Source: Arthrobacter sp. NEB 688 (GTDB taxonomy: Bacteria; Actinomycetota; Actinomycetes; Actinomycetales; Dermatophilaceae). Taken from it: 64,000 nt of DNA. Below are positions 7,120-30,922 of the stretch, one piece after another (positions within the stretch are counted from its first letter, which is position 1; every line of letters begins with the position of its first letter). The notes below the pieces were generated by a model, which worked only from the letters and a program-made list of their open reading frames with translations, was not told the origin of the DNA and did no database searches. The position numbers were made by a program, and so were the translations under genes. The stretch is taken from positions 2,294,001-2,358,000 of the forward strand of contig NZ_CP053707.1 in NCBI RefSeq assembly GCF_013201035.1, given 5' to 3'.

Positions 7120-8086
7120 GCGATTCGTCCGTCATCTCGCGGAGCTGCCGGCGGTCCTCGAGGCGCTGTCATACCACGAGGCCGTCCGGATGTCGTTGCT
7201 GGCTGATGAGGTCGGCTTGACGGAGGCCAAGGTCCGAGAGCTGCTCGTCTCCTACTTCATGACTGACGAGCCGCCGGACCGACGCGGGTGGGTGCCACCT
7301 CTGGAGTTCGTCGACGAGGCGGGCCGCGAGTCGGACCCGGCCGTAGCCCCGATGGTCAGGCTGACCAGCGACATCGTGACGAACGACCTCGCCTTCCGGT
7401 ACAGCCCCGTCGCGACATGGGCGCACACGTATCGGATTGCGCGCGACGAGCTGCACCTGAACCCCGAGAACTCGCTGCTGGAGGGTGCCCTCGAGAAGCT
7501 CGGCCGAGTCATCGACGACGTGCCCGATGCAGGCCTCGGCGCCGACGCGCTGCCGGACGGCCCGGCGGCCTGGCACCGGGCGGCCACGGACCGCCGGCGT
7601 GTCGCGATCAGGTACGCCCGCGCCTGGCGGCCCGGTACCACCGAGCGCGTCGTCGAGCCCTACCGCGTCGTCCGGACCCGGAGGGGGTGGGAGGTCGACG
7701 CCGGACCACCCGACGTCGACGGCCGGCTGAGGACGTACCTGCTCACCGGGATGCTCGACGCGACGCTCCTCGACGAGACGTTCGAGCTGCCGGAAGACCT
7801 GGTGGCGATGCTCGTCCGCCAGCGCCGCACGACGCCGGTCGACTTCGTGCTTCCCCCCGAGGAGGTATGGGTGCTCGAGCGCCTGGCCGAGAGGATCGAA
7901 GAGATCCGACGGGACGAGACCGACGTCGAGATCAGGGCGTGGTTCCTCGAGCCCGTGCGCGAACGCGTCGCCGCCGCGCTGGTCACTGCTGGGCCGCGCG
8001 CGATGGTCGTGAGTAGAGATTTCATGGACGCCGGGCGCCAGCTGGCGCAGGTCCTTTCTTCTCACCACTCAAGAAGGATGTCGTAG
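7112..8086 (+). CDS. WYL-domain transcriptional regulator (PafC-like position in pair)
   Basis: The start is GTG at 7112, overlapping the first WYL gene by eight bases. The N-terminal winged helix is typical of the second member of such pairs (LPAVLEALSYHEAVRM ... VGLTEAKVRELLVSYFM). A WYL core follows (VEPYRVVRTRRGWEVDAGPP), then a C-terminal winged extension (AALVTAGPRAMVVSRDFMDA). It is nearly superimposable on 26570-27538 over its whole length. The block RLTSDIVTNDLAFRYSPV is conserved in both, with one replacement (I to V). The first and second members of each pair are presumably obligate partners. Targets are not visible from sequence. Confidence 0.85.
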   Translation: MVERFVRHLAELPAVLEALSYHEAVRMSLLADEVGLTEAKVRELLVSYFMTDEPPDRRGWVPPLEFVDEAGRESDPAVAPMVRLTSDIVTNDLAFRYSPVATWAHTYRIARDELHLNPENSLLEGALEKLGRVIDDVPDAGLGADALPDGPAAWHRAATDRRRVAIRYARAWRPGTTERVVEPYRVVRTRRGWEVDAGPPDVDGRLRTYLLTGMLDATLLDETFELPEDLVAMLVRQRRTTPVDFVLPPEEVWVLERLAERIEEIRRDETDVEIRAWFLEPVRERVAAALVTAGPRAMVVSRDFMDAGRQLAQVLSSHHSRRMS

Positions 8087-10377: not shown

Positions 10378-10393
10378 GAGGAGTCCGTTCGGA

Positions 10394-11638
10394 TCAGACC
10401 TGCTTGAGTAACCGCTCGAAGGCAGTCTCGGTGATGATGGGGATTCCGTACGAGCGTGCCTTGCCCGCTTTGCCGCTGAAAGAGTTTGGGTCCGCGGCGA
10501 TGACGACCTTGGTTTTCTTCGTCACGCCGCCGGGTTCGAGGCCATGGCGCCGAGCGAGTGACTCCCACTCTGAGCGGTCACGGACCATCTCACCGGTGAA
10601 GACAACGCGGTCGCCGGGCTCGAGCCGGATGCCGCTGGTCGTGAGAGCCACCGGGGACGAGGACGTGTGGCGGCCGAGCCCCTCTTGGTGGGCTACTTGC
10701 AGGGCGGTGTCGACGTCAGTGCTGCGAAGGCCGAGCATCGATGCCCACTTCTCAAGATCCAGACGCTCGTCGGCGGTGACGACGTGATCCTCCAGGGCGA
10801 CCTTGGCCATCGCGCGCAGGTAGTCCGCGTGCAGGTCCAGAACCTGTCCGCGAGTGAGGCCGGCCGCTGTGGCTGCGTCGACGAGCTGTTCCTTCTCGTG
10901 CTCAGCGAGGAACCCGTCGAGCATCGACATCTCGAGGACAGCGAGATACGAGTCGACGCGAACATCGGCGGCGCGTGGCATCCGCGAGACGATGCGATCG
11001 AGCCACTCGTCCTGCCGGGCCGCGCGGGTCTCCGATCGGCGAGCCATGCGTAGCTCGGGGTACTCGCCGGTGAAGCTCGGCCACGCGTAGGCGCGTGTTG
11101 TTGACAGGGTCTCGGCCCACGGCGGACGAAAGGCGGACTGTCGCAGGTAGTGACCCAGCAAGAGGGCGGTTGCCATCGCGTCGGCGCCCGCGGAGTGCGC
11201 CGCGGTCAACGGGATGCCGCTTGCGCGGCAACAGTCGATGAGGCGACGGCTCGGGGCGTCCAGGTAGGCAGTCGACCACTGCATCGTGCAGAGGCCGGAC
11301 AGCGGAAGTGCCTGGAGCGGCACCCCCGACCGCTGCATCTCAGCAGCGAGGAAGCGCAGGTCGAAGGTGGCGTTATGAGCAACCGTGGTGCGACCGAGCT
11401 AGGCTCGAAGAACGTAGGGCGCCACGTCGTTGAACGTCGGTGCGCCGGCGACGTCGGTCGCGGTGAGCCCGTGGATCCGGGTCGGTCCGACGTCCCGCTG
11501 TGGGTTGACTAGCGTCGACCAATTATCCTGGACCTCGCCATTGTCCGAGACATAGACGACGCCGATCTTGACCACCCTGTCACCCTTCTCGGGGGAGAGC
11601 CCTGTCGTTTCGACGTCAATGACGGTGTAACCAGTCAT
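10394..11638 (-). pseudogene. DEDD-type 3'-5' exonuclease with C-terminal BRCT domain, interrupted by an in-frame amber codon
   Basis: The start ATG at 11638 follows the HNH stop by one base. The N-terminus is a DnaQ-like exonuclease (VIDVETTGLSPEKGD, i.e. the DxE motif). A TAG at 11401-11399 interrupts the frame. Immediately beyond it, in the same frame, comes LGRTTVAHNATFDLRFLAAE, the ExoII motif. Then follow LTAAHSAGADAMATALLL (ExoIII HxAxxD), a helical linker and a BRCT domain (GDRVVFTGEMVRDRSEWE ... VTKKTKVVIAADPNSFSGK). Only one base differs from a GAG glutamate codon. The gene may be dead, a sequencing error or a suppressed amber. A protein restarted at ATG 11338 would lack ExoI and ExoII. 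Confidence 0.85.
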
Positions 11639-11639
11639 G

Positions 11640-12377
11640 CTAACGAAGCCCTTTCGTGGCGCGGTGGTGGTCGATCCGACCGGCGATGGACGAAGCCTCG
11701 AGCGGAGGGTTCTCGATGTGAAGGAGACGGTGGCAGGCGGCACACACCACAGAGATTTCCTCCAATGACGTCCTCACCTCGCCAGAAACACTCAATGGGT
11801 CCTTGTGGTGGACGTCGATCGCCCGATCACCGTCTGGGCCGAACACCATTCGAGGTTGTAGGCCGCACGCCTCACACGTTCCCATATAGACGTCCAGAGC
11901 CTCGTCTCGAAGTTGCCGTGAGCGGCTCCGGCACAAGGCTATCCGCTTTCGACCTTCCGCCACAGAGATGCGGGGCCTACTGCCGACAGCATCGATGAGG
12001 TCATCGACAAAGGCTATTGCGGGAGCGTCCTCTAGCCTGCGCCATGGGCGCGATCCGTTGTGGCTACCTGTCACGTCATCCCACGACATGGCTGGGAGCA
12101 GAGGTGTGTCCTCGCCGGCAATCCAGATGGCGCCAGCGTTAGTCACCTCGGAAACGGGGGTAACCGCAGTGATCCGCCTGCTTCGGCCAGTACCTGTGGT
12201 GTCCACGAGCACGTCTCCCACGTGACACTCACCCGTCACGTGCCATCCCGGCACATCGTGCCCGAGTCGATAGTTTGTGAGGTCGCGCCGAGAGCCGTCA
12301 CAGCGGACCAACGCGGCCCCGTCGACAACCCGTCTCCGGATCGCGCGAAGGCTTGTGATCGTCTGGTTCTCAGACAT
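11640..12377 (-). CDS. HNH endonuclease, 245 aa
   Basis: The C-terminal third is a clear HNH domain of the McrA type: YMGTCEACGL with a CxxC zinc pair, AIDVHHKDPLS, and VVCAACHRLLH with the second CxxC pair and the final histidine. The N-terminal 150 residues form a beta-rich domain (WHVTGECHVGDVLVDTTG) that may recognise DNA or a modified base, but I do not recognise the family. The frame is intact. It overlaps the small upstream gene by eight bases and ends one base before the exonuclease start, so all are in one operon. HNH plus exonuclease-BRCT plus DUF262 nuclease suggests a DNA-degrading defence cluster. Confidence 0.85.
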   Translation of the reverse strand: MSENQTITSLRAIRRRVVDGAALVRCDGSRRDLTNYRLGHDVPGWHVTGECHVGDVLVDTTGTGRSRRITAVTPVSEVTNAGAIWIAGEDTPLLPAMSWDDVTGSHNGSRPWRRLEDAPAIAFVDDLIDAVGSRPRISVAEGRKRIALCRSRSRQLRDEALDVYMGTCEACGLQPRMVFGPDGDRAIDVHHKDPLSVSGEVRTSLEEISVVCAACHRLLHIENPPLEASSIAGRIDHHRATKGLR

Positions 12378-14992: not shown

Positions 14993-15832
14993 TCAGCTCG
15001 CGACCCGGCGCCGCGGCCAAGCGACGTAGGAGTCGGGGCGAAGCTCGGCAGACTCCCGAAGCGAACCGCGCATCTCGTAGAAGCCTGGGTGCCGTTCCAG
15101 ATGAAACACCCTGACCAGGGTGAACTGGTCGGTTGCTTCCGTGGAGAACTCCACCTCGTTCGCGCTGACGTAGAACGGCTGCCGTGCAGACCGGACGGTC
15201 GTCTTGACTTCCAGGAATCGCTCTTCGCCATCGGGCGTGAAGGAGCGAATGTCAAACCCGAGACCGTCGCCGTCCTCTACTGAAGAGTGCCGTACCTTCC
15301 TCGCGAGGTCTCGGCGCCCCCGTTCCGTCAGGACGCGGCGCTCGCGGTCCAGCACGAGAAGCTCGCCAGCCAACCCGCGGGCCGCGTTGCTCGCCTCGAG
15401 CGCGTTGTAGTCAATTCTCACGCCAGAGCGAAAGGCCGCGGCGCGATCAGGTACGACCAGATCATCCGGGACATCGACTGGGCTCCCAAGCTGTCGCAAC
15501 ATCTTGCTTGGTTCACGCGAGGCCGACCTCATGAGCAGCTGACGAAGATCAGGGTCGTTGTCAAACCGTTCGCTCGTGCGTTGCCGCAGAAGGTCTTGGA
15601 CATTCGAGAGTGGCTTGAAGCCCTCCACGAAAGTGGCGCCCAGCTCGGCGAGCACAGCGGAGACGTTGCTGAACTTGTACTGGACGGCGGACTCGCTGCG
15701 CCCGATCTCCCGGCTGAGTGGCCGGTAGTAGTCCACCTTCGGGAAGGTCTCGTCCCGCAGCTCACGTCGCAGCATTGCGAAGTAGACGTCGAGTGTTCGC
15801 TCGACTTCGCTCTCTGCCCACCCCTGCGCCAC
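14993..15832 (-). CDS. DUF3883 domain-containing protein, 279 aa
   Basis: The start is GTG at 15832. The N-terminal half is helical (AESEVERTLDVYFAMLRREL), resembling the pattern found in proteins that pair with DUF3883. The C-terminal half is the DUF3883 domain: GLGFDIRSFTPDGEERFLEV followed by KTT, with downstream FYVSANEVEFS and FTLVRVFHL. DUF3883 is related to PD-(D/E)XK nucleases (D..ExK core) and is frequent in defence islands. It is divergent from the large operon starting at 16015 and shares its 180-base upstream region, so it could be part of the same system or an independent nuclease. The frame is intact. Confidence 0.8.
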   Translation of the reverse strand: MAQGWAESEVERTLDVYFAMLRRELRDETFPKVDYYRPLSREIGRSESAVQYKFSNVSAVLAELGATFVEGFKPLSNVQDLLRQRTSERFDNDPDLRQLLMRSASREPSKMLRQLGSPVDVPDDLVVPDRAAAFRSGVRIDYNALEASNAARGLAGELLVLDRERRVLTERGRRDLARKVRHSSVEDGDGLGFDIRSFTPDGEERFLEVKTTVRSARQPFYVSANEVEFSTEATDQFTLVRVFHLERHPGFYEMRGSLRESAELRPDSYVAWPRRRVAS

Positions 15833-15851
15833 GCGGGCAGTGTGTCACGGT

Positions 15852-15866
15852 CTCGAACGGTTCGAG
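15852..15866. promoter_or_regulatory. Inverted repeat in the divergent promoter region
   Basis: CTCGAAC-G-GTTCGAG is a perfect 7+1+7 inverted repeat, 20 bases before the GTG of the DUF3883 gene and about 150 bases before the 16015 gene. The half-site matches that of actinobacterial LexA boxes (TCGAAC-N4-GTTCGA), but the spacer is one base rather than four, so it is not a canonical SOS box. It could be an operator for one of the WYL regulators; this is inference. Confidence 0.4.
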
Positions 15867-16014
15867 GCAGGTTCGCACAAGTGCAATAGACGGGCTGTGG
15901 CGAACAGTGTCGTGCTCGTTTCACGCGTGTGTGTTGGAGGCAACGGTTACCGTGCCCTTCGTTGGTCAACCGGGGAGCGCCAGCGCAGGAGCGCGGCATC
16001 GCGAGGGGAATGAA

Positions 16015-19000
16015 GTGGACGACTCAAACAGCCCGTGGGTGCGCTACGACGCCTGGAACTTCGCGCTGGCGGAGACGTGGTTCAGTGGCGACTCGGCCTT
16101 TCACCCCGCTTATGTCGATGTCGACCAAGCCGTCCTCCAGTCCGCTGCGAGCCGCATCGGGGTCGCCGGTGACCCGACCGCGGCGTTGATCGATGTTGTC
16201 CGGGAGTCCCTCTGGCTCGAGGACGACCGAGCGTTCGCAGCCCACCGTCGGTCCCTCGATATGTGGCGTGCGCGGGCCCGCCAGGCGCGAGCCACCAAGT
16301 CCCGCATGGAGGCTCCCCCTCCGGTGATGCCGCTCCTCGGGGTGTTCACGGTGGCCGCCGAGCAGATGGGAGCCAGCGATGTCTACGCAGCAAACGCGTA
16401 CCGCCCTCGCCTCGAGGCGCTGCTCAACGTGCCGGCCACGCGCTCGAGGAGCTTCCAGAACGCCTTCACCCAGCACAGCGAGGTGGTGTGGCGCGCGCTC
16501 AACGAGTACCTCGAGCTCAATGAAGGTCTGTGCGGCCTCCCGACCGCCTACTCTCTCGGGCACCGATATGTCGGGCTTCCGCAGTCTCAGGCATTGGTGC
16601 GAACGGCTGATCGCCGAAAGCTGCCACAGTTCTTCCGCCTCTTCGGCTTCGCTCCTCGGTCAGAGGCGGTGTCGTCCGATCTGGAGCGGCTGCTCGACAT
16701 CTGGATCGGCCAGACTCCAAGCCCCGTCTCCAGGAACTTGAGTCGTCTCTGGAAGGGCAAAGCCCGCGAGCGGATCGCGGGCATCGCAAGTGTCGAGCTC
16801 TCGCACTGGGACGGCTCGTACGAGAAGGACGATGAGGAAGGAGCCTCATCCCGAGCTGGTGAGCTGCGACTCACGGTGCTCCTCCGACGTGGTCTCGGAG
16901 GGCGGCGGCTCGAGCTTTCGTTTGCAGCCAGGTTCCCCACACCAGTCACGGTCGAGCACCTGACGATCGAGTCTGCAGAGGGCAAGCCCCGTGTCGCGGT
17001 GCTCCCGTCAGCGGGGGCGCGAATGCGCCCCGCGCCTATGAGTCGCTTTGATGCCGAGTCGCTGGTTGGTGCAGCAGTCAGCCTGTCCGAGCCGTCACGC
17101 CACCAGACAGCGGCACGGAGACCGCGCCGGGTTCTCCCTCTGCATCGGGACGACCTCCTGGGCGTCTTTGTCGAGGTGGAGAAGATCCAGCTGACCGAGG
17201 ACGCGATGGTCTTGGTCAAGGACGAGCCCAAGGTCGTCGAGCTGGTGAAGGAGCTGCTGAGCTCGCATGGCCGGCACGGTGACATCTTCGCGGCGGAGTC
17301 CAGAGAGGGGGTCGACGCGCTGCCCGGACTGCCGACCGGATGGCTCCTGATCGACGGCGTTGAGATGTTTGCTGTGCCGAGTGAGGTGAAGCACGCCGAC
17401 CTCAACCCCCTGGTGCCCCTGATGTCTGCTCAGATGTCGTTCGCCGGCGGGCTCAAGATGCCTGGGAGAGTCCGGAAATGGTCGAGTCAGCAGCCTCCCG
17501 AGATCCGTGCAGCGGTCTCCGAGGCGTCGCGCCTCGAGATAGCCCTGGCGCCGCTCGATGAGCGGGGGCCTGGGAGTAGTCGAAGCTGGACGGCCGACCA
17601 GCCGGCGATCGTCGTCGACCTCAGCGACGAGGGTCTCGCGGACGGCGACTACGAAGTCACTCTTGCCGCCGACGGCACCACGCTGGCTCAGACCACGCTC
17701 CGGCTCCGGTCAGGGGACACTCCCGATCTGGTCAGCTGGACGACATCACCGCGGCTGGTCTACGAGCTCGACGGCGCCGCGATCGCTGCGTTGAGCGCCG
17801 TAGACATGTCAGAGGCGTCGGATCTCCTGGTCGACGGCCCACGGCTGCTTGGCGAGCCACAGGTGCGCATCGAGCCTCGCGCGCTGCCAGGCGCCCCCAC
17901 CTGGCTGACCAGGCCTTCACAGAAGGCCACCAACGTCAGGCCGGTGGTCATGGGAGTCGCGGATCCTCGCTCCTGTCTCGTGACAGGGCGGCACTACCTC
18001 GAGCTGCCGCCGTACATGGGCGGCAAGACGAGTGGTCAGATCCAAGGAGTGTGCAGGACCTGCGGCCTCGTGAAGAGCTTCCCTGGGAACCCCAGGAAGC
18101 AGAAGCGAAAGCAGCAGAAGACATCCCTCGACCTGGACCTGACGCGTCTCCCGGCTCCGAGGGAGACGGCTGTCGCCCTCGACACCTGCCTCGACGCACT
18201 GATTCACGTCGGTGGTGGCAGCATGGGCTCTTTCGAACGGGTGGCCACGCAGGCCGAAGGCTCAAGCCTCTTCGTGGACGACCTGCTACGCACCCTCGAA
18301 GGCCTCGGACACGTCGACGTCAAGCGTGACCTCAACCTTCTGCCCCTTGAGTGGGAGATCACTCCCACCCAGTTTGCCGAGCTTGCCGACGGCTCGTTCC
18401 TGCTCACGGGTGCCTGGTCCGCGGCCTCTCGTTCCCGCCTTCGGGCACTGGTGGAGGAAGCGGGGGGCGCCCTGCGTGTCGAGTGCAGCACACAGACCAA
18501 GCTGTTGAGCAGATGGTCGGTGGAAGGCTTGTCTGCTGACCTGATGGAGGAGATCGCACTAGCCATCGGGGACTGTTTCGTAGCGCGTGATGCAGCCGCC
18601 CGCCTGTTGGCTGCTCTGCCACCCCTGAGCCAGGTCACAGAAGCACTTCCCCTGCGCGCCATTCCGATGCACTCGAAGGCACAGAAGTTCGACCTCGGTA
18701 GCGCCCGGTGGGTGCCGGTGCCAGGAGTAGCGGGGCCTGGCGCGTACCGGGTCGAGCAGTCCTTCCGCACCATCTCCCTGTGGGTTGACCATGAGGGCGC
18801 CATCCGTCGTGAGGGACGGCAAGGCTCTGTACAGCTGGTGAAGCACATCGCCGCGTCCGCCGCTGGGCGGCCGCTGGCCGCCTACTCCCCGGCTCGAGAG
18901 ATGTTGTTCGTTCCCCTGGGCTCTGACCTTCCCGGCCTCTACGGCCGCGTCGCGACCCTCTGCGGCGGGTCGTCCCCTCTCGTCTCCACGGGAACCCGCA

Positions 19001-19065
19001 CCCTCGCCTACACCGACGTGCCTCGTCGCACCGCCGAGTCCCTCGCCGGGCTACTTACTAGCTGA
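16015..19065 (+). CDS. Large defence-operon protein of unknown fold, 1016 aa (DruH-like by position only)
   Basis: GTG 16015 is chosen because GAGGGG (16003-16008) sits six bases upstream; the longer frame from 15718 overlaps the divergent gene and looks non-coding. The protein starts [15 protein letters not shown]. The first 300 residues are helical ([19 protein letters not shown]). The middle is beta-rich ([19 protein letters not shown]). A zinc-binding CxxC ([10 protein letters not shown]) lies near residue 680, followed by a lysine-rich loop. A winged-helix-like part ([19 protein letters not shown]) lies in the last third. Eleven bases separate it from the helicase gene. Druantia type III consists of such a large protein (DruH) and DruE; I assign similarity from gene order and size only, not from a motif. 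Confidence 0.7.
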
Positions 19066-19076
19066 AAGAAGAACCT

Positions 19077-22000
19077 GTGACCACTCCGCTGACGTTGCGA
19101 GACGAGCTCCGGGACGCCTACCTCCGCTACTTCGACACTGCCTTCTGGCTGCGGGATGCCCGGCTTCGCGCCGAACGCCGCCAGCTCCTCGAGGAGCCCG
19201 GACGTCTGCTCAGCGAGTGCCTGCTGGAGCCGGTGTTGCCCTATGACGCTGATACCCAGCTCCTGGACGTGACGAGAGAGGCGAAGGTCTCCGACGAAGC
19301 GGCGCGAACTGTGGGTGATGCCTTGTTCGGTTCGTTCACGCCGGAGGGGGAAGCCATCCGCCTGCGGTCTCACCAGGCCGACGCCGTGCGTCATCACTTC
19401 CGGCCCGGTGACGCGGGCGAACGCAACGTCGTCGTCACCTCCGGTACCGGCTCGGGCAAGACGGAAAGCTTCTGGCTCCCGACGCTGCTGCGGCTCGTGG
19501 AGGAGTCGCACTCGTGGGATGACCAACCTGCTGTGCGGCACGCATGGGCAACGGGCGCGGACGACTCGTGGCACTCGCCGCGTACGGGCGAGACTCGCGA
19601 GGCAGCGGTACGAGCACTTGTGCTCTACCCGACCAACGCGCTCGTCGAAGACCAGATGACACGCCTTCGCCGAGCGGTCCGACGCATCGGACTCGCCCAG
19701 CCGACCAAGCCGCTCTGGTTCGGTCGCTACACCGGCGTCACGCTCGGCCAGACCTCGCGGCCGAAGCCGAAGAGCAACTCCATCGTCGAGGTCGCGACCG
19801 AGATGCGGAACATCGACCGCGAGTTCACCAAGCTTCGAGACGGTGGTGCATCCGAAGACGACCTCGCCGAGTTCCCTGACCCTCGTATGCATGAGCTGCT
19901 CGTGCGGTGGGACATGGTCGACACGCCTCCGGACATCCTGGTCACGAACTACTCGATGTTGAACGCGATGCTCATGCGGCACCACGAGGAGAGCCTTTTC
20001 GCCAAGACGCGAGACTGGCTGCAGCGCGACGGCAGCGTCTTCACACTCGTCGTGGACGAGCTGCACCTGTACCGCGGCACGCAGGGTAGCGAGGTCGCCA
20101 TGGTGGTGCGCAACCTCCTGAGCCGCCTCAGGTTGGAGCCTGGGTCGCCCAAACTGCGCATCATCGCGACGAGCGCCTCGCTCACAGCGGATGGCTCTGG
20201 TCTTTCGTTCCTGGAGGAGTTCTTTGGCGTCGGGCGTGACTCCTTCTTCGTGACATCTGGGGAACCGCGGTCGCTAGGTGATCCAGTGCGTCTCAGCCGG
20301 ACTGACGCCCAACGCGGCGAGCTGGGGGTAGACCCGGCCGAGCTGTCTCGGGCGGTGGCCGTAGCGTGCGTCGACGACGTCGAGCAACGAGTCAGGGCGA
20401 CGGAGGCTAGCGTCGTTGCCGAACGGCTCTTTGGCGAACCCGACGAGGACCTCGAAGGATTGCGCGGTGTTCTGCGCGAGATCTCGGAAGGCGACGCGAG
20501 AGGGGGCATCCCTCTCCGAGCCCACCAGTTCGTCCGCACCGTCCGGGGGTTCTGGGCGTGCAGCAACCGGGAGTGCAGCGGCGTGCCACCTGAGCACCGT
20601 GCGAGCCGCACCATGGGGACGCTCTATGCCATTCCGGTCGACACCTGTCCGCACTGCGGATGCCGCGTGCTGGAGCTTCTCTACTGCTTCGAGTGCGGCG
20701 ATGCCAGCCTGGGAGGGTTCGTCGTCGGTGAGCTGTCCGATGAGGAAGGCGGCGGCGTTGTCGTCGGTCCATCGGCTGTCGACATCCCTGCACTCGAGGC
20801 TTTGCCAGTCTTCCGACGCGAGCACGGAAAGTACGTCTGGTTCTGGCCCGGGGAGCGACCCGCCGAAGCCGATCCTTCCTGGGCACGCGGTCTGCCCAAG
20901 AACAAGGACCGAGACCAGATTGCGGTCAAGGGCAGGCCAGCCTCGCCGAGGTCCGTGACTTTTGGCTTTGTGCCAGCACGATTGGAGCCAAGCCTGGGAT
21001 GGATCAGTCGAGGCGGGCAAGACTCCAACGGGTGGGTGCTGCAGGCAAGTGCCCTTCCGGACGACAGTCCGCACTCCATCCCCGCTCTGCCCGACCGGTG
21101 CCCGAGGTGCGGGACCGCCTACTACAACGAGTCCGCGAAGTTCTACGACGGGTTCGTCCGAAGCCCGATTCGTGCTCACACATCGGGGACCGCGCAGTCA
21201 ACCCAGCTGTACCTGTCGCAGCTCATCAGAAGCATGGGGAGCACGCCGCAAGACTCTCGGACCATCGTCTTCACCGACAGTCGGGATGACGCTGCCCGGA
21301 CGGCAGCCGGCGTGGCCAAGAACCACTACCGCGACGTGGTCCGACAGGTAGTTCGCCAGGTGATGGATGAAGCAGAACCCGATGTCGAGGACATCGTCAG
21401 CAGGCACGCCCGGGGTGAGTCGCTGTCGATGAGCGAACAGGTGGTGGCCGAACAGTTCAAGGCGGAGCACCCTGGTGCGCTGGACCTCGTCCAGAAGCGG
21501 CGCTTCGTCGAGCTGGACGACGAGGAGGTCCAGTCTCTTGCGGCCTCCTTCGGGTCGGCACCTGACAGCTCCATCTCGTGGGTCGACCTCCGTCAGCAGA
21601 CGCTCGGAGAGTTGGTGAGCCGCGGCATCCCGCCGGCTGGGCCGGGTCCCTCCGGCGCAAAGAACTCGGACGGGAGCCCATGGTGGACGGCATTCCTGCC
21701 GTCCACGTCAGGCGACTGGACGGCCCTGCCGACCGCGGTGCGAGACCAGGAGGCAGACCGGCAGAAGGAGCGCCTCACCGAGAGCATGGCCGAAGCGCTC
21801 TTCGATCGAGCAGGGCGCGACATTGAATCTGTGGCGCTGGCCCACGTGGCGGCGGCGAAGATCGACGCCACGAGAGGACCGCTGAGCGCGTCAGCCAACG
21901 CCGAGGTGCTGCAGTCGGTCCTTCGGATCCTTGGAATCGCACGGCGGTGGTCGGGAGGTGACTGCGACGAAAGCCTCAGGCCGCCCAAGGTCATCCGCCA

Positions 22001-24434
22001 GTACCTGACCAACGTCGCGAAGAGGCACACGGCAGAGGTCGATGACCTGGTCGTCTGGGTCCAGGGCGCGCTCGAAGGTGCGGGCATCGTCAGCAAGTGG
22101 CTGATCAACATCAGCAACCTCGTCTCACCCCTGACTTTCGTTAAGGCGGGGGAGCACACCTGGGACTGCCAGAACTGCTCGTTCCGCCACCTCCACCCTT
22201 CTGCGGGCATCTGTGCCAACCGGTACTGCCATTCTGATCGGCTGACGATGGTTCCGGTCGACCATGACTCGAGCGACTACTACGGGTGGCTGGCGAGCCA
22301 GACACCTCGCCGCCTCGCCGTCGCGGAGCTCACTGGACAGACCAAGCCGCTCGCAGAGCAGAGACGGCGAGCTCGCGTCTTCAAGGGAGTTCTGCTTCCT
22401 TCGCCCGAGGAGAACCGGACCACGACGCCTCTTGATGTCCTGAGCGTGACGACCACGATGGAAGTAGGAGTGGATATCGGGTCGCTCCGGTCGACGTTGA
22501 TGGCCAACATGCCGCCTCAGCGCTTCAACTACCAGCAACGGGTGGGACGGGCCGGTCGTGCGGGTCAGGCATTCTCGTACGCAGTCACCGTCTGCCGAGA
22601 CCGGACGCACGACGACGACTACTTCACCACCCCACGCCGGATGACGGGCGACGAACCACCGCAGCCGTTCTTGGACCTTCGGCGACGCCGCATCCCCCAG
22701 CGCGTCATCGTGGCCGAGCTGCTTCGTCGGGCTTTTGCGTCCCTGACGCCCGCTCCGGACTGGACAAGCGACAGCATCCACGGGACGTTCGGTCGGACGC
22801 AAGAGTGGGCGGAGCGACGCAACGACGTCGCGGCATGGCTGGCAGACGAGGCGGGCCGCATGGCGACCGTCCGCCGCTTCACCGTCTTCACTGGCCTCGA
22901 CGATGCGGACCTTAGACAGCTCCACCTATCGACGGGGGACGAGCTCGTTGCCGCTATCGATGCTGCCGTGGAGAATGACGGCGGGGATACCCCAGAGCTG
23001 AGCGAGCTGCTGGCTACCGTTGGCATCCTGCCCATGTTTGGCTTCCCGACGCGCGTTCGTCAGCTCATGGGGAGCCGACCGAGAAGCCGGTCTGACCTGA
23101 ATGCAGCGTCTGTGTCCGACCGGTCGCTCGACATGGCCGTCTCGATGTTCGCCCCAGGAGCGCAGGTCGTTCGCGACGGCAGCATCCACACGGTCGCCGG
23201 GTTCGCTGCGTGGGACGTTCGAGGGTTCGGCAGGCCTCAACCCCGTGACCCGTTGGGTCCGCGCAAGAACGTGGGCCAATGTGGCGCGTGTGGGGCGGCT
23301 CGCCTTGACCCGCCCTCCGAGGTTTGCGAAATCTGTGGTGGCGCGCTGGCAGCCATCCCGTTGCACCAGCCCCTGGGATTCCGGACGACCTACCAGTCGC
23401 GCGACTACGACGATGAAAACGACGCATCACCCACGGCGGGCGCGCCCATGCTGTCTGTCGGTTCGGAGCCGACGAGCGAGTCGCCGGTGCTTGGGTGCCG
23501 GATCTCGGCCTACGACCAGGCGAGTCTCATCCAAGTGAACGACAACCGAGGACGGCTGTTCCCCATCGCTCGTCAGTTCGACGGGTCCTGGATCGTCACC
23601 GACGAAGCACTGTTCCCCGATCTCAAGAGCTGGCCGCCGGCGGCCCGCGCCGAGGAAGAGATCGCCATCGGCGAGATTCGGACAACTGATGTCCTGACCA
23701 TCCGTCTCCAGACGGCACGTCTTCCGAGAGGCTTCCTGTCCCGGTCTGCATCGCACGTGCCGGCAGGGCGAGCCGCCTACTGGTCGCTCGCGGAGGTTCT
23801 CCGACGGGGGGCGAAGAGACTCCTGGATGTGGATCCGCAGGAACTGATCTCGGGTCTCCACCCGTTGCCCGACGGTTCCATGTCCGTGTTCATCGCTGAC
23901 TCGCTAGACAACGGAGCGGGGTACGCCAGTGAGATCGGTCAGGCTGCCACCTTCGAGGAGTTCGTCAAGCGGCTCAGCAAGGAGCTGGCGGACGAGTACA
24001 CGGACGCACGGCACGTCCAATGCACGAGCTCGTGTCCTGACTGCCTTCGGTCCTACGACAACCGGCGCCTGCACGGCGCTCTCGACTGGCGACTGGCGCT
24101 CGACATGCTGGACCTCGTCAACGACCAGCCCATCTCTCTCGAGCGGTGGCTGGCGCCGGCGGCTGCAGTGGCACGGGCCTTGACGGAATCTGAGTTTCTC
24201 GACCTAGCAGGGGACACGACCCAGGACGGCCAGGTGTACGTTGCTCGACGCGATCGGAAGGCCGCGGTGCTGCTCGGACATCCTCTCTGGGACGTCGAGG
24301 CGGACTACTGGACAGAGGACCAGGCAGCGGCTGTGGACGAGCTGGAGAACGACCTGGGCTTTGGCGAAGTCCACGTCGAGGACGTCTTCACGGCCGTGCG
24401 CCGGCCGCTCGCCGTCGTTCGGAGGCTGATGTGA
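19077..24434 (+). CDS. DEAD/DEAH-box helicase with zinc clusters and DUF1998-like C-terminus, 1785 aa (DruE-like)
   Basis: SF2 motifs are clear: Walker [12 protein letters not shown] (residues 121-131), [13 protein letters not shown] (Ia), [10 protein letters not shown], the DELH box in [10 protein letters not shown] (about 326), ATSASL (III), [13 protein letters not shown] (V) and [11 protein letters not shown] (VI, about 1152). Between and after the helicase lobes are CxxC pairs (CPHCGC, CFECG, CPRCG, CQNC, CGACG, CEICG). The end has SLDNGAGYA and [14 protein letters not shown] (about 1650), as in MrfA/DUF1998-family helicases. Length and layout match DruE of Druantia better than MrfA (about 750 aa) or DrmA. 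The start is GTG 19077. The stop overlaps the nuclease start (GTGA). Probably an ATP-driven DNA translocase of a defence complex. Confidence 0.85.
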
Positions 24435-25525
24435 CCGTTGCGTGGCCGGACCCCGACATCGAGCCGATTGACCGGGTGTCACCGACCTTTCTCAGCGCGA
24501 TGGACCAGTGCCTCAAGCGCGCGGCCTTTCGACGGGATACCAAGGTGCGTGACTGGGACAGGCCGTCGACGCGCAGCGCTCTGGGTCTGGCCGCACACGG
24601 GGTGACGGAGGCGGTCGCACGTCGCCAGTACGACACTAGTGAGGACCTTCAAGACTGGCTTGAGCGAACATGGAGCACGTCGATCGCGCTGCATCAGCGA
24701 CGATTGAGCGACGCTTGGGACGGCCGAGAGATTCCGGAACCTCGTCTGTGGCCCGGTTACGCCCGAACCAAGACGCGACTGCTGCGGCAGCTCAGACGGC
24801 AGCTCGAAAGGGCTGATATCCCTGGGAGTGCACCGTTAGCGTCACCCACGCCGGGTCGGAGCCATTCGACCCAGCACGCGAGTCCTCCGCCTCTGCCGTG
24901 GGTCGAGCACGGTTTGGAGGATCCTGATTGCGGAGTTTTTGGAACGCCGGATCGTGTGGAGCTTCGCGGCTCGGAGTTGTGGGTAGTCGATCTCAAGGCT
25001 GGTGTGCACCAGGGAGAGATGACGAGCAGCCAGCGCCGCCAGCTCCTCATTTACGCGCACCTCGTGAAGAGGTGCCTGGGACGACTGCCTGATCATGCAT
25101 GCATCCAGGACGTCAGCGGCCACGAGAGCTCGTTCCAGGTGACCTTGGAGGAGACGGCCGAGACGATCGAGCGCGTGAAGGCTGATGTCCGGGACTTCAA
25201 CAACTCGGTCAGGGATGCCGCGGTCGTCGGATCTCCGAGCCCCGAGTCGTGCGGGCGTTGTCCGTTTCGCGTCGTGTGTCATGACTACTGGGACGCTTCA
25301 GAGGGCGACTGGAGGTTTCGGGGTGATGTACGCGGAGAGATCGTCGACGTTGATCCGGACGGGTGGCTCTTGAGCGACGAAGCGGAACCAGCAGTCCCGC
25401 GTCGCCTAGTGGGGCCCGACGGGCTGGATGCCCGGCAGGGAGCGGCTGTTGTCGCCGTGGGGTGCCGACCCGTAGGACCGCGAGTGCTTCACGCCACGTG
25501 GGACAGCCGCGTCCGAGTCTTCTAG
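24431..25525 (+). CDS. Cas4/AddB-like PD-(D/E)XK nuclease with Fe-S cysteines, 364 aa
   Basis: The start is GTG 24431, overlapping the helicase stop by four bases. Cys27 ([12 protein letters not shown]) and Cys274, Cys277 and Cys283 ([10 protein letters not shown]) have the C...CxxCx5C arrangement that holds a 4Fe-4S cluster in Cas4, AddB and Dna2-type nucleases. The PD-(D/E)XK core is [10 protein letters not shown] (P173-D174) and LWVVDLKAG (D187, K189), followed by QxxxY-like [13 protein letters not shown]. The last 75 residues form a separate beta-rich domain, perhaps OB-like. Tight coupling to the helicase suggests helicase-nuclease action on DNA ends. Known Druantia operons, as far as I recall, lack such a gene. 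Confidence 0.85.
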
Positions 25526-25599
25526 CGTGTCGTCGCTTGGTGTGAAGAGACAATCCGTACAAGAGACGCGAGAAGAGACAGGCGACAAGGGGCGAACGG

Positions 25600-26577
25600 G
25601 TGCCTGACGATGTGGCGGGACAAGGACACGTGGCGGACCTGGACGTTGCTGCTCTGATGCTCGAAGGCATCGACGTGTCCGCGTTCGAGCTCGCCGTAGA
25701 GCGGAACTCTGTGGCAGCCGTGCCGGCTTCCTCTCGGGTGGCTCCAGTCGCACGCCTTCTGCGCCTGCTGCGGACTCTCGCCGCATCAGACGGACCGAGG
25801 GGGCTCGAGGCCGCCCGGCTGCTCGATGTCGCCGGCTACGATGCGGGGAACCCAAAGTCCGCTATGGCAAGCCTGCAGCGAGACCTTCGACGGCTCACCG
25901 ACGCTGGCTGGCAGATCGAGAACGTGTCACCGGAAGGGTCGGACGCACGCTACGTCCTGTTCCCTAATGACCTCGCCAGCCGGGCCGGGCTGACGCCCGG
26001 CGAGCAGTCGGTTCTCGAGGAGGCCCTGAACAGTGCAACTGGCACGTCCGAGATCGCCGATCCTCCAGGTGGGCTCGCGCTAGCCCGCAGAGCCGTTGAC
26101 GCCCACTGCGTGCTCGAGATGACCTACGGCGGCCGGCTCCGGCGCGTGCAGCCCTTGCGGCTGCACAGTGCCGGTGGCCGATGGCTGCTCCGCGCACGCG
26201 ACGAGCACGACGAAGCCGTCAAGTGGTTCCGCATCGAGAAGATCGAGCAGCCCTCGCTCGACGACCCCGGCAGCGCTCCCGAGCACATCGAGGACCCGGA
26301 GGACTCCCTCGACCCGCACCAGTGGCGGATCCACGCGCCGACTGACATCGAGCTGGAGGTCGGCGCGGGTCACCTGCCCTACGTGCGGCAGACGCTACGT
26401 CTGCCGCTCGACGTCGCGGACCGGCCCGACGGGAAGCACCACTTCCGTGTGACGATCACGAACCGGCGGGCGCTCACCGACTGGCTCGTCACCATGGGCA
26501 CCCGCGTGCGGCTCCTAGGGCCGGCCGACCTGCGCCGCGACGTCCTCGCGCACTTCGAGGCGGTGGCCCGTGGTTGA
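25600..26577 (+). CDS. WYL-domain regulator, first member of the second pair
   Basis: The start is GTG 25600 with AAGGGGCGAACGG before it. After a 45-residue variable N-terminus come the winged helix (VARLLRLLRTLAASD ... AMASLQRDLRRLTDAGW), the WYL core (RRVQPLRLHSAGGRWLLRARD) and the C-terminal extension (LLGPADLRRDVLAHFEAVARG). It follows the nuclease by 74 bases on the same strand, so read-through from the defence operon is likely. It overlaps its partner by eight bases, the same junction as at 7112-7119. It is clearly paralogous to 6085-7119; the variable N-termini are the main difference, which may set partner or ligand specificity. Confidence 0.85.
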   Translation: MPDDVAGQGHVADLDVAALMLEGIDVSAFELAVERNSVAAVPASSRVAPVARLLRLLRTLAASDGPRGLEAARLLDVAGYDAGNPKSAMASLQRDLRRLTDAGWQIENVSPEGSDARYVLFPNDLASRAGLTPGEQSVLEEALNSATGTSEIADPPGGLALARRAVDAHCVLEMTYGGRLRRVQPLRLHSAGGRWLLRARDEHDEAVKWFRIEKIEQPSLDDPGSAPEHIEDPEDSLDPHQWRIHAPTDIELEVGAGHLPYVRQTLRLPLDVADRPDGKHHFRVTITNRRALTDWLVTMGTRVRLLGPADLRRDVLAHFEAVARG

Positions 26578-27538
26578 GGCGTTCGTCCAGCAGCTCGCTG
26601 GGCTCCCAGCGCTCCTCGAGGCGCTCTCATACCACCGGGCGGTGCCGATCGCGGTCGTCGCGGAGGAAGTGGGCCTGCCATCGAAGAAGGTGCGCGAGCT
26701 CCTCGTCGAGTACTTCCTCACCGACGAACCGGACGACCGGCGGGGCTGGATCCCGCCGCTGGAGTTCCTCGACGAGTCGGGGGAGGAGGCCGACCCGCGG
26801 ACGGCGCCGTGCGTGCGGCTGACCAGCGACGTTGTGACGAACGATCTCGCCTTCCGCTACAGCCCGGTCACAACGTGGGCGCGGACGTACCGGCTCGCTC
26901 GCGATCAGCTCCACCTCGACCCGGAGAACTTTCTCCTCGAAGGAGCACTCGAGAAACTCGGGCGAGCGATCGACGACGAGCTGCGGCCGGGCAGCGCCAT
27001 CGACCGCGGCGACGTCGGGCCCGCCCGCTGGGACCGGGCCGCGAAGGAGCGGACGAAGGTCGCGATCACCTACGTCCGGGCGTGGCATCCGGGGACGAGT
27101 CGACGCACCGTCGATCCGTACCGCGTCGTGCGGACCCGGCGCGGTTGGGAGGTCGACGGCGGCCCGCCGGACGAGTCCGGGCGGATCCGCACGTATCTCC
27201 TGTCCGGCGTTGTAGAGGCGGAGTTCCTTGACGAGTCACTCGAGCTCCCGGCTGGCCTAGAGTGGTTGCTCGCCCAGCAGCGGCGCACGACGCCCGTCAA
27301 CTTTGACGTTCCGCTGGAGGAGCTGTGGGCCCTCGAACGGCTGGCGGAGCACGTCGAGGAGATTCGCCGGGACGCCGAGGACGTGAGCCTCCGGGCGCAC
27401 TTTCTCGAGCCGGTGCAGGCCCGCGTCGCCGCGGCACTCGTCACCGCTGGCCCGCGGGCGATGGTCGTCGACCGCGACCTGATGGATGCCGGACGCGAGC
27501 TTGCCGCCGAGCTCCTTGCCCACCACCGAGGTGACTGA
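26570..27538 (+). CDS. WYL-domain regulator, second member of the second pair
   Basis: The start is GTG 26570. The winged helix (LPALLEALSYHRAVPIAVV ... PSKKVRELLVEYFL), WYL core (VDPYRVVRTRRGWEVDGGPP) and C-terminal region (AALVTAGPRAMVVDRDLMDA) align along the whole length with 7112-8086. Only 54 bases separate its end from the convergent gene at 27593, and no terminator-like hairpin was found there. With its partner it is the most likely regulator of the operon upstream; activation by DNA damage, as for PafBC, is a possibility rather than something shown here. Confidence 0.85.
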   Translation: MVEAFVQQLAGLPALLEALSYHRAVPIAVVAEEVGLPSKKVRELLVEYFLTDEPDDRRGWIPPLEFLDESGEEADPRTAPCVRLTSDVVTNDLAFRYSPVTTWARTYRLARDQLHLDPENFLLEGALEKLGRAIDDELRPGSAIDRGDVGPARWDRAAKERTKVAITYVRAWHPGTSRRTVDPYRVVRTRRGWEVDGGPPDESGRIRTYLLSGVVEAEFLDESLELPAGLEWLLAQQRRTTPVNFDVPLEELWALERLAEHVEEIRRDAEDVSLRAHFLEPVQARVAAALVTAGPRAMVVDRDLMDAGRELAAELLAHHRGD

Positions 27539-27592: not shown

Positions 27593-28510
27593 TCAGGCCG
27601 CGCCGCCCGTACGGAGCGCGAAGTCGCGGGCGGTGTTGCCGCCGGCACCGCGCATCCGCTCGATGGCCTGGACGAGGTGGCGGGGGACGAACGGCGCTGC
27701 CTGCACGTCCTGCTCGACCATGAGCAGCCCGTGGTCAGTGACGAAGCGCAGCCCCACCGCGTCGCGGTTGAGCAGACCCACCTCGCGCTGGGCGGCGCGC
27801 TGCGACTTGATGCCGTGGACGAGCACGCAGAACAGACGAACGGTCGGCTCGTGGTCCATCACCCGGACGTAAGCCCTACGGTGCCCCACCGTGAACGGCA
27901 CGTCGCCGTCCTCGTCGAGCTCGGTGTTCTCGCCGGCCGTCGCCATGGTGCGTCGCACGAGTTCCATCAGCTCGAACGAACTGGCCACAGGGTGGGCAAG
28001 ATCCAGGTCCACCGTGTCGAGGTCACTGGCCGGGATGGGAGAGGGCGTCGGCTCCAGCCCCTCCGGTCCGGGCGGCATACCGGCGAGGAGGAGCGGGTGG
28101 ACCACGCCGAACGCCTCGCGCAGCACCCGGACGATTGTTTCGGCAACGAGCTCACACTCGGTGGCATTGGCGTAGCGGAACCAGTTGGGCGCGTCGTCCG
28201 CAGGGTCCTCGCTCGGCGGTGCGAATCCAAGAGCGTCGAGGACCTCCGGACCGATCAGCCCCGTCCGAGCCGTCGGCTCCAGGAAGGCCTCACTGCTCGC
28301 CTCGAGCCGGAAGGCGGAGCCCTCGGCGAAGGACAGGACCTGCACGTAGGGCAGGGCGCCCTCCGTGGGCTCCTCGCCCTGGGTCTGGACGAAGATGCTC
28401 TGCCCGTCCTCCAGGCAATCCAACCGGCGCAGCAACTGCCCCTCGTACTGGCTCCACGCCTCCTCGATCGACCGCTCCAGGTCGACCCCCGACTGCTCGT
28501 TCCGCCCCAT
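27593..28510 (-). CDS. YbjN/TY-Chap-like protein, 305 aa
   Basis: The start is ATG 28510 (MGRNEQSGVDLERSIEEAW) with GGAAGAGGGG upstream; the longer frame to 28702 overlaps the divergent gene. Two repeats of the type III chaperone/YbjN fold seem present: an N-terminal part (FVQTQGEEPTEGALPYVQV ... AFRLEASSEAF) and a C-terminal part (AYVRVMDHEPTVRLFCVLV ... LRFVTDHGLLMVEQDV). Families of this kind (TY-Chap) are predicted peptide-binding proteins often found near conflict systems. It diverges from the macro-SIR2 gene. Fold assignment is by pattern only. Confidence 0.6.
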   Translation of the reverse strand: MGRNEQSGVDLERSIEEAWSQYEGQLLRRLDCLEDGQSIFVQTQGEEPTEGALPYVQVLSFAEGSAFRLEASSEAFLEPTARTGLIGPEVLDALGFAPPSEDPADDAPNWFRYANATECELVAETIVRVLREAFGVVHPLLLAGMPPGPEGLEPTPSPIPASDLDTVDLDLAHPVASSFELMELVRRTMATAGENTELDEDGDVPFTVGHRRAYVRVMDHEPTVRLFCVLVHGIKSQRAAQREVGLLNRDAVGLRFVTDHGLLMVEQDVQAAPFVPRHLVQAIERMRGAGGNTARDFALRTGGAA

Positions 28511-28587
28511 GTGCGCCACCCCTCTTCCTTCGTCTTCGGCTGCGACCACAGCGTGCCCGAAGGGTCCAACACGCCGGTTGGCCGCGC

Positions 28588-28606
28588 AGGTGTCGTGTCG
28601 ACACCT
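28588..28606. promoter_or_regulatory. Perfect inverted repeat upstream of the macro-SIR2 gene
   Basis: AGGTGTCG-TGT-CGACACCT is an 8+3+8 perfect inverted repeat, ending 31 bases before the ATG at 28638 and 78 bases upstream of the divergent gene. The position fits an operator or repressor site covering both promoters. The binding protein is unknown. Confidence 0.5.
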
Positions 28607-28637
28607 AGGGCCGCCCGTCCTCTGGCACATTGCGCCC

Positions 28638-30182
28638 ATGGAGGGGCACCTTTTCGCGGTTCTGGGCGACCTGACTCGACTGGACACTGACGCCGTCGTC
28701 ATCCCGTGCGACTTCGAAGGGAACGTCAGCCACTACTGGAAACCGTTGCTGCCGGAGAAGCGCTTCGACCCGGGGCCGTACGGCCACCGTCTGCGGGACG
28801 GCCTCACGGCGCCGCCCGGCGAGGTCACGATCGCCGCTGGGGACCGGCGTCTGTCCTTGGCGGTGACGGCTGCCCGCGAGCCGTTGCCTCCCTGCGAGGT
28901 CGTGGACCGAGCCGTGCAGGCGGTGCTCGCCGCCGCGCGCGACCTCGCCTCCCATCGGGGGCGCCATCTTCCGCTCGTCTCGTTGCCGTTGGTCGGCACG
29001 GGGTTGGGCGGTCACTCGACGGAGCGCCGGAGGGTGGTCGAGCTGTTGGTGCCTGCGCTCATCGACCTCACACGCCGCGAGGGCGTGGACGTGGCACTCG
29101 TGCTCAATGATCGCCGTGACTACGCCGCGGTGCAGGCGGAGCGCGGCCGTTCGTCGACCGCGGCCACGGATCCGTGGAGCGGGCTGTCCACCGATGGGCA
29201 GCGGCAGGCGGACGATCTTGGGCGCCTCGCCGCACGCGGTGCGTTGTCACTGTTCGTCGGATCTGGGGTCAGCGTTCCCCTGGGATTGCCGAACTGGCGA
29301 GAACTCATGGTCTTGATGGGCCAGCGTGCAGGCGTGACGTACGAAGTGCCGGAGGATGCCAACCTTCTCGATGAAGCGGCAGGCCTTCGGTGGTTGTTGC
29401 GATCCGACTACGCACCTTTCATGCGCAAGACCTTCGAGCGGAAGCACCACGCGCTGGGGCACGCGCTCCTCGCCGCGCTCGGGGTGCAGCGCATGGTCAC
29501 GACCAACTACGATCCGTGTCTCGAGCTCGCACTCGACGGCGTCCATCGCGCCGACTACGCCGTCATGACGCGGAACCTGGCGACCGGTGAGCGGCCTTGG
29601 CTGCTCAAGATCCACGGTGATGTGAAGGACCCCGAGTCGATGGTTCTCACGCGCGCCGACTACGAGCGCCTGGCCGACGAAGGCCGTGCCCTGCACGGTG
29701 TCGTCGAGAGCCTCATGCTGACCAGCCACGTGATGTTCGTCGGCTACAGCCTCGTCGACCACGACTTCGCCGACGTCGCCCATGGAGTCAAGCTGGTTCG
29801 CGACCGCGCCGAGACATTGGGTGCCCGCCCGCCCTCAGGGACCGCGCTCGCGCTGCACCCGGGTGCTGTCGACGAGGACCGATGGCTGGGTGAGGTGGAC
29901 GTCGTCGCGATGGGGGAGGCGGACGAGCTCCCGGCTGCGCCCCGGACTCTTGAGATCTTCCTCGACCGTGTCGCCTGGGCCTGCCTCGACCAAGGGGAGC
30001 TCGCTGCGGAGTTCCTCCTGGACGACCGCTACGCAGCCGGCGCCGACCCGGCCGATGTGGCCCTTCGCCAGGCTCTCGAGGTGGTCGCAGCGAACCCCGA
30101 GGTGCGGGGATCGGTGGGGTGGAGAAAAGTCGAGGGTCTGCTGACCGCGCTGGGACATGTCCCTGGTCCGCCGGCTCCATGA
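28638..30182 (+). CDS. Macro domain-SIR2 fusion protein, 514 aa
   Basis: ATG 28638 is chosen because a macro domain starts there (LDTDAVVIPCD) and ends near residue 165, with the ADP-ribose-binding-loop-like VSLPLVGTGLGG. A SIR2-like NAD-binding domain follows (residues about 195-400): LSLFVGSGVSVPLGLPNW, MVTTNYDPCLELA, LLKIHGDVKDPESMVL with the conserved histidine, and FVGYSLVDHDFADV. The last 100 residues are helical. SIR2 domains in Thoeris, DSR and related systems deplete NAD on infection; macro domains bind or remove ADP-ribose. Fusing both suggests production and processing of an NAD-derived signal, or self-limited NADase activity. The frame is intact. Confidence 0.85.
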   Translation: MEGHLFAVLGDLTRLDTDAVVIPCDFEGNVSHYWKPLLPEKRFDPGPYGHRLRDGLTAPPGEVTIAAGDRRLSLAVTAAREPLPPCEVVDRAVQAVLAAARDLASHRGRHLPLVSLPLVGTGLGGHSTERRRVVELLVPALIDLTRREGVDVALVLNDRRDYAAVQAERGRSSTAATDPWSGLSTDGQRQADDLGRLAARGALSLFVGSGVSVPLGLPNWRELMVLMGQRAGVTYEVPEDANLLDEAAGLRWLLRSDYAPFMRKTFERKHHALGHALLAALGVQRMVTTNYDPCLELALDGVHRADYAVMTRNLATGERPWLLKIHGDVKDPESMVLTRADYERLADEGRALHGVVESLMLTSHVMFVGYSLVDHDFADVAHGVKLVRDRAETLGARPPSGTALALHPGAVDEDRWLGEVDVVAMGEADELPAAPRTLEIFLDRVAWACLDQGELAAEFLLDDRYAAGADPADVALRQALEVVAANPEVRGSVGWRKVEGLLTALGHVPGPPAP

Positions 30183-30697: not shown

Positions 30698-30922
30698 ATG
30701 AACAGCGACGAGGAGAGGTCACCGTGCCCGAGCTGCGGTGGTGACGCGGTGCTGGACATCGCCTACGGGGACCCGGTGCGAGCGCCTGGTCCCGGAGTCG
30801 TGCTCGGTGGATGCGTGGTGGGAGGCGACATGAAGAAGTGGCAGTGCGCCCGGTGCGGTCACCGGTGGGGCGACGTCGACCGGGTGACCGTCGACCTCGA
30901 CGAGACCAGGCGGCTCTCGTGA
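30698..30922 (+). CDS. Small zinc-ribbon protein, 74 aa
   Basis: Two CxxC knuckles are visible (CPSCGGDAV and WQCARCGHRW) about 40 residues apart, the layout of a zinc ribbon. The stop overlaps the GTG start of the helicase gene in a GTGA junction at 30919-30922, so the two are coupled. It may be a nucleic-acid-binding adaptor for that helicase. Confidence 0.7.
   Translation: MNSDEERSPCPSCGGDAVLDIAYGDPVRAPGPGVVLGGCVVGGDMKKWQCARCGHRWGDVDRVTVDLDETRRLS

Follow-up and report, generated by a model that had tools for sequence, protein, structure and literature searches.

Among the Druantia defence systems distinguished by PADLOC, type II is composed of DruM, DruF, DruG and DruE, with DruM and DruG as requisites, and type IV of DruE, DruF and DruL, the last being a hypothetical protein by which type IV is told from type II (PMC8565338). 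Type III consists of DruH and DruE. Its DruE is described as a helicase-nuclease on its own (PMC13192584, PMC12458937) with a preference for 3'-tailed DNA, DruH being the likely sensor (PMC13192584), and the DruH-DruE pair is reported to stop phage DNA circularization and replication (PMC13316683). Such mechanistic work is recent for type III, and none on types II and IV was found by titles and abstracts. The locus described here lies in a stretch of 64,000 nucleotides (the window, 2294-2358 kb) of the genome of Arthrobacter sp. NEB 688, which is a single contig of 4.08 Mb. It is almost certainly a Druantia-family defence operon of the II/IV branch, with the gene order druF (long form)-druE-druK. 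We consider, with a probability of about 0.62, that in this operon DruF would grip DNA, DruE would be the motor and DruK would cut in trans. The features of the locus are:

16015-19065, plus strand: druF, long form, 1016 amino acids from a GTG start (PDLC00023, 1053 bits over residues 5-1016; AlphaFold model with a predicted local distance difference test (pLDDT) score of 86.5; CHCC residues; DruL match)
18172-19065, plus strand: DruL-equivalent domain within druF, residues 720-1016 (PDLC00057 DruL4, 68 bits; AlphaFold model with pLDDT 96.5)
19077-24434, plus strand: druE, 1785 amino acids, predicted YprA/MrfA-type superfamily 2 helicase with MZB zinc domain (PDLC00015 DruE2; Pfam domains; helicase motifs)
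24431-25525, plus strand: druK, 364 amino acids, predicted iron-sulphur (Fe-S) PD-(D/E)XK nuclease (PDLC00060; PDDEXK_1, 61 bits; conservation in 27 sequences)
25600-26577, plus strand: WYL-WCX regulator, first member of WYL pair B (P0004), 325 amino acids (WYL and WCX above the Pfam cut-off); accessory
26570-27538, plus strand: WYL regulator, second member of WYL pair B, 322 amino acids (WYL above the Pfam cut-off)
14993-15832, minus strand: divergent PDC-S36/NOV_C neighbour, 279 amino acids (PDC-S36, 282 bits; NOV_C, PF13020); membership doubtful

The predicted helicase of 1785 amino acids matched the PADLOC DruE2 model with 1661 bits (over 2-1784), DruE4 with 1380, DruE1 with 529 and DruE3 with at most 356 bits. 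Domains above the Pfam cut-offs were DEAD, Helicase_C and MZB on DruE, PDDEXK_1 on DruK and NOV_C on the divergent gene, and the Pfam scan found no domain in DruF. The helicase motifs of DruE were invariant in 20 sequences. A Druantia-family helicase accompanied by a Fe-S PD-(D/E)XK nuclease of the Cas4/RecB type, as proposed in the original prediction for this DNA, is thus supported by PADLOC, Pfam and residue conservation. The comparison with type III (DruH and DruE) made in the same prediction fell on the difference between the DruE2 and DruE3 scores and on the partner, which is DruF; PADLOC gave no DruH match for this protein of 1016 amino acids. Type III shares with the locus the YprA-type DruE helicase, and the common helicase family, together with low scores for DpdJ (62 bits) and DrmA (34 bits), is what could speak for a type III Druantia or a DISARM or Dpd relative extended with a nuclease. 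On the same scores and partner, type III was ruled out and this wider explanation is extremely improbable. The locus differs from type III also in that DruE of type III needs no separate nuclease according to the reports cited above.

Of the two outcomes that had been predicted, an extended Druantia variant or a separate system, the Druantia variant stood, and neither the separate system nor an extension by the WYL genes did. A match of the partner protein of 1016 amino acids to another known system had been named as an adverse outcome, and the protein does match a known family, but Druantia's own. The other adverse outcome named, loss of the nuclease and WYL genes from most homologous loci, was observed in that the WYL genes were found in none of the 99 loci and the nuclease was missing from 58 of 85. 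By its sequence the locus belongs, as a variant, to a defence family already known and is not a new kind, all three core genes having PADLOC models. The genes in the window are regarded as real from the DruF2, DruE2, DruK and PDC-S36 profile scores and from the druF-druE(-druK) order kept elsewhere, and the predicted coordinates, gaps, overlaps and common strand, as well as the divergent DUF3883-type gene, were exact to the base. druF and druE are separated by 11 bases, druE and druK share a GTGA overlap, 74 bases lie between druK and the first WYL gene, and the WYL genes overlap by 8 bases; the divergent gene and druF are 182 bases apart. The druF frame is open upstream to 15718, and GTG 16015 is a reasonable start because the DruF2 profile match begins at its residue 5. 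Promoter and terminator signals in the locus were no more than in shuffled sequence, and a common transcript of the five genes is therefore only a possibility.

The comparison with other genomes was based on 99 fetched loci (L026-L124), of which four were duplicates. The set contained 96 non-redundant loci including the window, 85 in which at least 1.5 kb followed druE and 74 in which both flanks reached 6 kb; genes in the fetched loci were called by GC bias or longest frame, with unrefined starts. DruF was found with its own profile in 95 of the 99 loci, upstream of and adjoining DruE, and was not detected in L060, L085 (DruE at contig end), L095 and L100. The three genes occur in the same order in cassettes of Demequina, Cellulomonas, Nocardioides, Mycobacterium and others, the closest being that of genome G709, whose DruE is sister to the window DruE on the DruE tree (67 % identity, support 100). 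These cassettes differ from the window in having a methyltransferase within 10 kb in 17 of the 24 that have 6 kb on both sides, and none has a WYL pair.

Within the II/IV branch, the locus fits neither type exactly: its sequences resemble type II, DruL is fused to DruF, DruK is present, DruM is missing in cis and a WYL pair is added. The features shared with type II are the DruE2-type helicase and DruF2, both models being matched over the full length; the differences are that DruM is not coded in cis, that DruG gave no match, and that druK and the WYL pair follow druE. No DruM was found in the window, and in the whole genome PF00145 occurs only at approximately 809 kb and 326 kb. DruG had no PADLOC match among the 25 window proteins, in an analysis that contained no positive DruG control. 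With type IV the locus shares DruE and DruF without DruM and DruG (for DruG by this uncontrolled scan) and a DruL sequence, which is located in the C-terminal third of DruF. It differs in lacking a separate druL gene, the DruL sequence being present only as DruF residues 720-1016, and its DruE is nearer to DruE2 than to DruE4. The same gaps in gene content could mean that the operon is a decayed, non-functional type II Druantia from which druM and druG were lost. This is very improbable, since the three genes are long and intact, their active-site residues are conserved, and the same three-gene set occurs in other genomes.

Residues 758-1012 of DruF gave the match to DruL4. All 55 sequences compared, namely the domain cut out of the window protein, 42 counterparts from long DruF and 12 free DruL proteins (chosen by similarity to DruF from roughly 20 in the fetched loci), matched both the DruF2 and the DruL4 model at E ≤ 0.01. 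The simplest reading is that DruL arose by splitting the C-terminus off DruF. The PADLOC paper was the only one on Druantia with DruL found in the open-licence PMC literature. Modelled DruF has a helical N-terminus, a beta-rich middle and an alpha/beta C-terminal part with a winged-helix-like start. A zinc site seems to be formed by C654, H660, C680 and C683, which were conserved in 41-42 of 43 sequences. The DruL-like domain gave weak winged-helix matches and nothing at E ≤ 0.001 with Foldseek. In the phylum sample of 396 genomes long DruF was found in 2, and in the order sample, also of 396, 17 genomes had a PDLC00023 match of any kind; a plasmid search with DruF returned just two distant records. 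A coiled-coil DruC1-like protein (71 bits) is coded between druF and a free druL, ahead of druE, in a Poribacteria locus (L101:7018-9108), a possible bridge to type I.

The nuclease, which had been predicted to be a new addition, is already known to PADLOC as DruK, and druK was present in 27 of the 85 loci with room downstream, including the window (17 with long DruF, 8 with split DruF and 2 other). All features of the DruK family were found in the window protein: the profile match (216 bits, positions 2-286 of 347), the PD-(D/E)XK and Fe-S residues, and the place after druE. C27, H56, D174, K189, Y208, C274, C277 and C283 were conserved in 27/27 DruK sequences (and likewise in a smaller set of ten), D187 in 26/27 (one E) and Q204 in 26/27 (one H). 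This is the pattern of Cas4/AddB-type Fe-S nucleases. In all 27 loci with a DruK of at least 300 amino acids druK abuts or overlaps druE, at -433 to +14 bases by the longest-frame start and at -4 in the window. Among 392 genomes of the order, PDLC00060 matched in seven at E ≤ 1e-15, all beside druF-druE and with no orphans at that threshold; G668 carries a more divergent DruK (L042), also beside druE, which falls below it. On the DruE tree (93 rows, 30 of them with druK; a quick method with support from the Shimodaira-Hasegawa-like approximate likelihood ratio test only) the druK label required 15 changes, at least 13 of them forced by supported branches, and it was nevertheless clustered, none of 500 shuffles being as low. 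The distribution of druK is as expected of what may be a plug-in effector. No paper joining Druantia with DruK was found in the open-licence PMC literature.

The place of druK after druE is taken by other genes in some loci. Ten Proteobacteria loci (L068, L070, L074, L075, L077, L081, L083, L085, L107 and L109) have a conserved protein of approximately 655 amino acids there, with weak AAA/helicase matches in the one scanned (L068). It was rejected as DruG, PADLOC giving just one weak NERD+UvrD match for one member and Pfam only matches below the cut-off. In Streptomyces (L091:15441-17959) a Septu-like PtuA/PDC-M01 pair directly follows druF-druL-druE, and L092, L093 and L123 appear similar by gene size only. 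In Mycobacterium aquaticum (L078:15238-16001) druK matches occur in two overlapping frames, and the gene is possibly broken.

No nuclease domain in DruE was named by Pfam or PADLOC. Inactivated Vsr nucleases were predicted in type I and II Druantia helicases by Bell et al. (PMC12458937), and we infer that the nuclease of this DruE is missing or, by analogy with those helicases, may be present in a dead form. That DruE and DruK act as one helicase-nuclease is fairly likely. A targeting scaffold in DruF, a motor in DruE and a nuclease in DruK are proposed on the basis of the type III helicase-nuclease data and of the predicted dead Vsr in type I and II DruE. DruF, as a multidomain scaffold, would recognise or grip invading DNA and load DruE, DruE would translocate on this DNA or unwind it, and DruK would degrade or nick the exposed DNA in trans. 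Self DNA would probably be spared by 5-methylcytosine (m5C) or by its state. The linkage and co-occurrence of methyltransferases described below also count in favour of this proposal.

Of the 74 loci, 48 had an m5C methyltransferase (METHYLTRANSFERASE) no more than 10 kb from druE (17/24 of the druK-positive and 31/50 of the druK-negative ones), as counted with phmmer at >35 bits using four queries taken from the loci themselves. The matches to these DruM-like queries exceeded 300 bits in 20 of the 48, were 60-300 bits in 15 and at most 60 bits in 13; two of the 48 were query loci. The methyltransferase of L047 is a clear DruM2 (806 bits). No methyltransferase was nearby in the other 26 loci, including the window, L033 and L034 having one just beyond the fetched stretch. 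In G709 genes for a methyltransferase, GmrSD_N, Z1, DUF4420, druF, druE and druK follow each other on one strand within approximately 18 kb. The Arthrobacter genome has a homologue of this methyltransferase, an m5C enzyme of 539 amino acids coded at 809 kb, 1.5 Mb away from the locus, together with Vsr, GmrSD_N, Z1 and DUF4420. Homologues of the 809-kb enzyme (E ≤ 1e-60) were found in 44 of 392 genomes of the order, in 10 of the 17 with DruF (Fisher p 1.3e-6) and in 7/7 with PDLC00060 (p 1.4e-7; 6/6 and p 1.3e-6 without the own genome), the 17 DruF genomes (of 396) and the 392-genome sets being treated as one set and relatedness being ignored. In six of these seven genomes the starts of druF and of the homologue were 1.5-11 kb apart. 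G668, whose DruK is the divergent one, was not among the 44, and the 7/7 depends on the DruK threshold.

The 809-kb enzyme might be a DruM in trans which marks self DNA, so that DruF, DruE and DruK attack unmarked DNA. The linkage in 48 loci, the co-occurrence in all seven PDLC00060 genomes and the gene order in G709 are in favour of such methylation-guarded restriction, as is DruM being required for type II (PMC8565338). It is nevertheless unlikely: only 20 of the 48 methyltransferases match strongly and 26 loci have none, G668 has DruK without the homologue, the 809-kb enzyme has Vsr, GmrSD_N, Z1 and DUF4420 of its own, 34 of the 44 genomes with the enzyme have no DruF, and the linked enzymes form no clade. 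On the methyltransferase tree (27 rows, a BLAST filter having removed 14 of the original 41, probably owing to wrong or short longest-frame choices) linked and unlinked enzymes were mixed, 433 of 500 shuffles being as low, and the nearest relatives of the 809-kb enzyme were unlinked; a special kinship with druF-druE-linked enzymes was therefore rejected. The module of methyltransferase, GmrSD_N, Z1 and DUF4420, linked to druF-druE-druK in G709 and located elsewhere in the own genome, resembles CglI/NgoAVII-type systems, which combine a methyltransferase with Z1. It differs from them in that it is not in the window and that the three-gene composition described for CglI is unlike it (PMC4267653), the likeness resting on the Z1 domain and a search listing. 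Methylation-based self-marking in this strain is rather unlikely.

Several points weigh against the proposed division of labour between DruF, DruE and DruK. The dead nuclease in the C-terminus of this DruE would be carried over from related helicases by analogy. Since druK is absent from 58 of the 85 loci with room, DruE and DruF can exist without DruK. DruF gave nothing at E ≤ 0.001 with Foldseek against PDB and BFVD, the matches being mostly FN3/Ig-like, and its role is therefore a guess. The lack of a methyltransferase in cis, the methyltransferase genomes without DruF and the failure of the 809-kb enzyme to group with the linked ones count on the same side. A more general picture, in which the II/IV branch has a constant chassis (a DruF/DruL targeting scaffold whose fold has found no match, and a helicase without a working nuclease), an exchangeable slot after druE (DruK, the ATPase-like protein of approximately 655 amino acids, the Septu-like pair or none) and, in addition, self-marking by a cytosine methyltransferase that may be coded outside the locus, here 1.5 Mb off in another restriction module, from where it would protect the host from its own DruF, DruE and DruK, is quite improbable as a whole.

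The WYL pair was predicted to be part of the system and PafBC-like, and neither claim was supported. A neighbourhood survey, as had been suggested for the four core genes, showed that druF-druE(-druK) recur in order; for the two WYL proteins a search of the 99 related loci at E ≤ 1e-4 gave no homologue. Relatives of P0004 at E ≤ 1e-20 occur in 4 of 297 genomes of the order, including the own one, and the two large neighbours scanned in G410 and G425 code for a GGDEF protein and for a CDP-alcohol transferase. Of the seven WYL matches in the genome, four make up the two window pairs, two a stronger pair at 2.77 Mb, and a single one is located at 677 kb. The PafBC pair is widespread in actinobacteria, and the pair at 2.77 Mb is taken to be PafBC-like; the rarity of P0004 and this stronger pair rule out the window pair as the housekeeping PafBC. 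WYL pair A, 18 kb upstream of pair B on the plus strand (6019-7119 and 7112-8086), is 59 % (over 265 amino acids) and 69 % identical to it, with the same 8-base GTGGTTGA overlap, and is preceded by a PDC-S37/Hhe-like helicase gene and then two smaller genes. Two unrelated helicase operons are thus each trailed by a copy of the pair, which argues for a local regulator module and not a part of Druantia.

All five genes could still form one system, with the WYL pair as an integral sensor switching DruF, DruE and DruK on. The common strand, the 74-base gap after druK and the 8-base overlap agree with this; WYL regulators are reported to co-localise with defence systems (PMC9122601) and the WYL domain of SiwR to bind single-stranded DNA (PMC10693628). 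Such an integral role is nonetheless improbable, given the absence of the pair from the 99 loci, the rare P0004 with other neighbours in G410 and G425, and the equal pair behind a different operon in the window. WYL pair B is better regarded as a locally recruited regulator which probably senses single-stranded DNA or nucleotide stress, and whether it regulates the druF-druE-druK operon is evenly balanced. The open-licence PMC literature yielded nothing joining Druantia with WYL and Actinobacteria.

The divergent gene carries NOV_C (PF13020), which we take to be the former DUF3883. It was rejected as a conserved part of the system, with a long homologue in 2 of the 99 loci (L054 and L094), and its membership was left as doubtful; the L054 homologue, too, is located upstream of druF and diverges from it. 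One further gene, in L043 and its duplicate L110, matched in its N-terminal part (PDC-S36 positions 1-97).

The stretch looks like a defence island because several neighbours are defence-like, alongside a G+C content of 0.64-0.68 at 8-27 kb of the window and 0.69-0.78 further right (2-kb windows). Positions 3-2762 (plus strand) code for the 3' part of a PDC-S37/Hhe-like helicase of approximately 2,100 amino acids with an MTES_1575 nuclease domain, the rest of which is upstream of the window (L131); a homologue is found near druF-druE in Nocardioides sp. GY 10127 (L067:770-6829). Between the two WYL-bearing operons, on the minus strand, are a weak GmrSD_N/HEC-05 protein (9486-10568) and a weak HNH/type IV restriction match (11640-12377). 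Positions 10394-11338 (minus strand) code for a PDC-S48 protein (333 bits), which has a BRCT domain and matches DEDDh weakly. Downstream of the locus, on the plus strand, are a SIR2-like protein with similarity to ThsA (28365-30182, 77 bits) and a NERD-helicase (30811-32619, RTasNERD-Hel, 99 bits). A strong AT skew (0.31) was observed at 56001-58000.

With DruL as the C-terminus of DruF, PADLOC type IV loses its main positive gene-content mark, and it seems that such loci cannot be typed by rules which ask for a separate DruL, or for DruM and DruG. The locus is a compact three-gene form suited to a study of the role of DruF and of DruK as a possible substitute for the nuclease apparently lacking in DruE.

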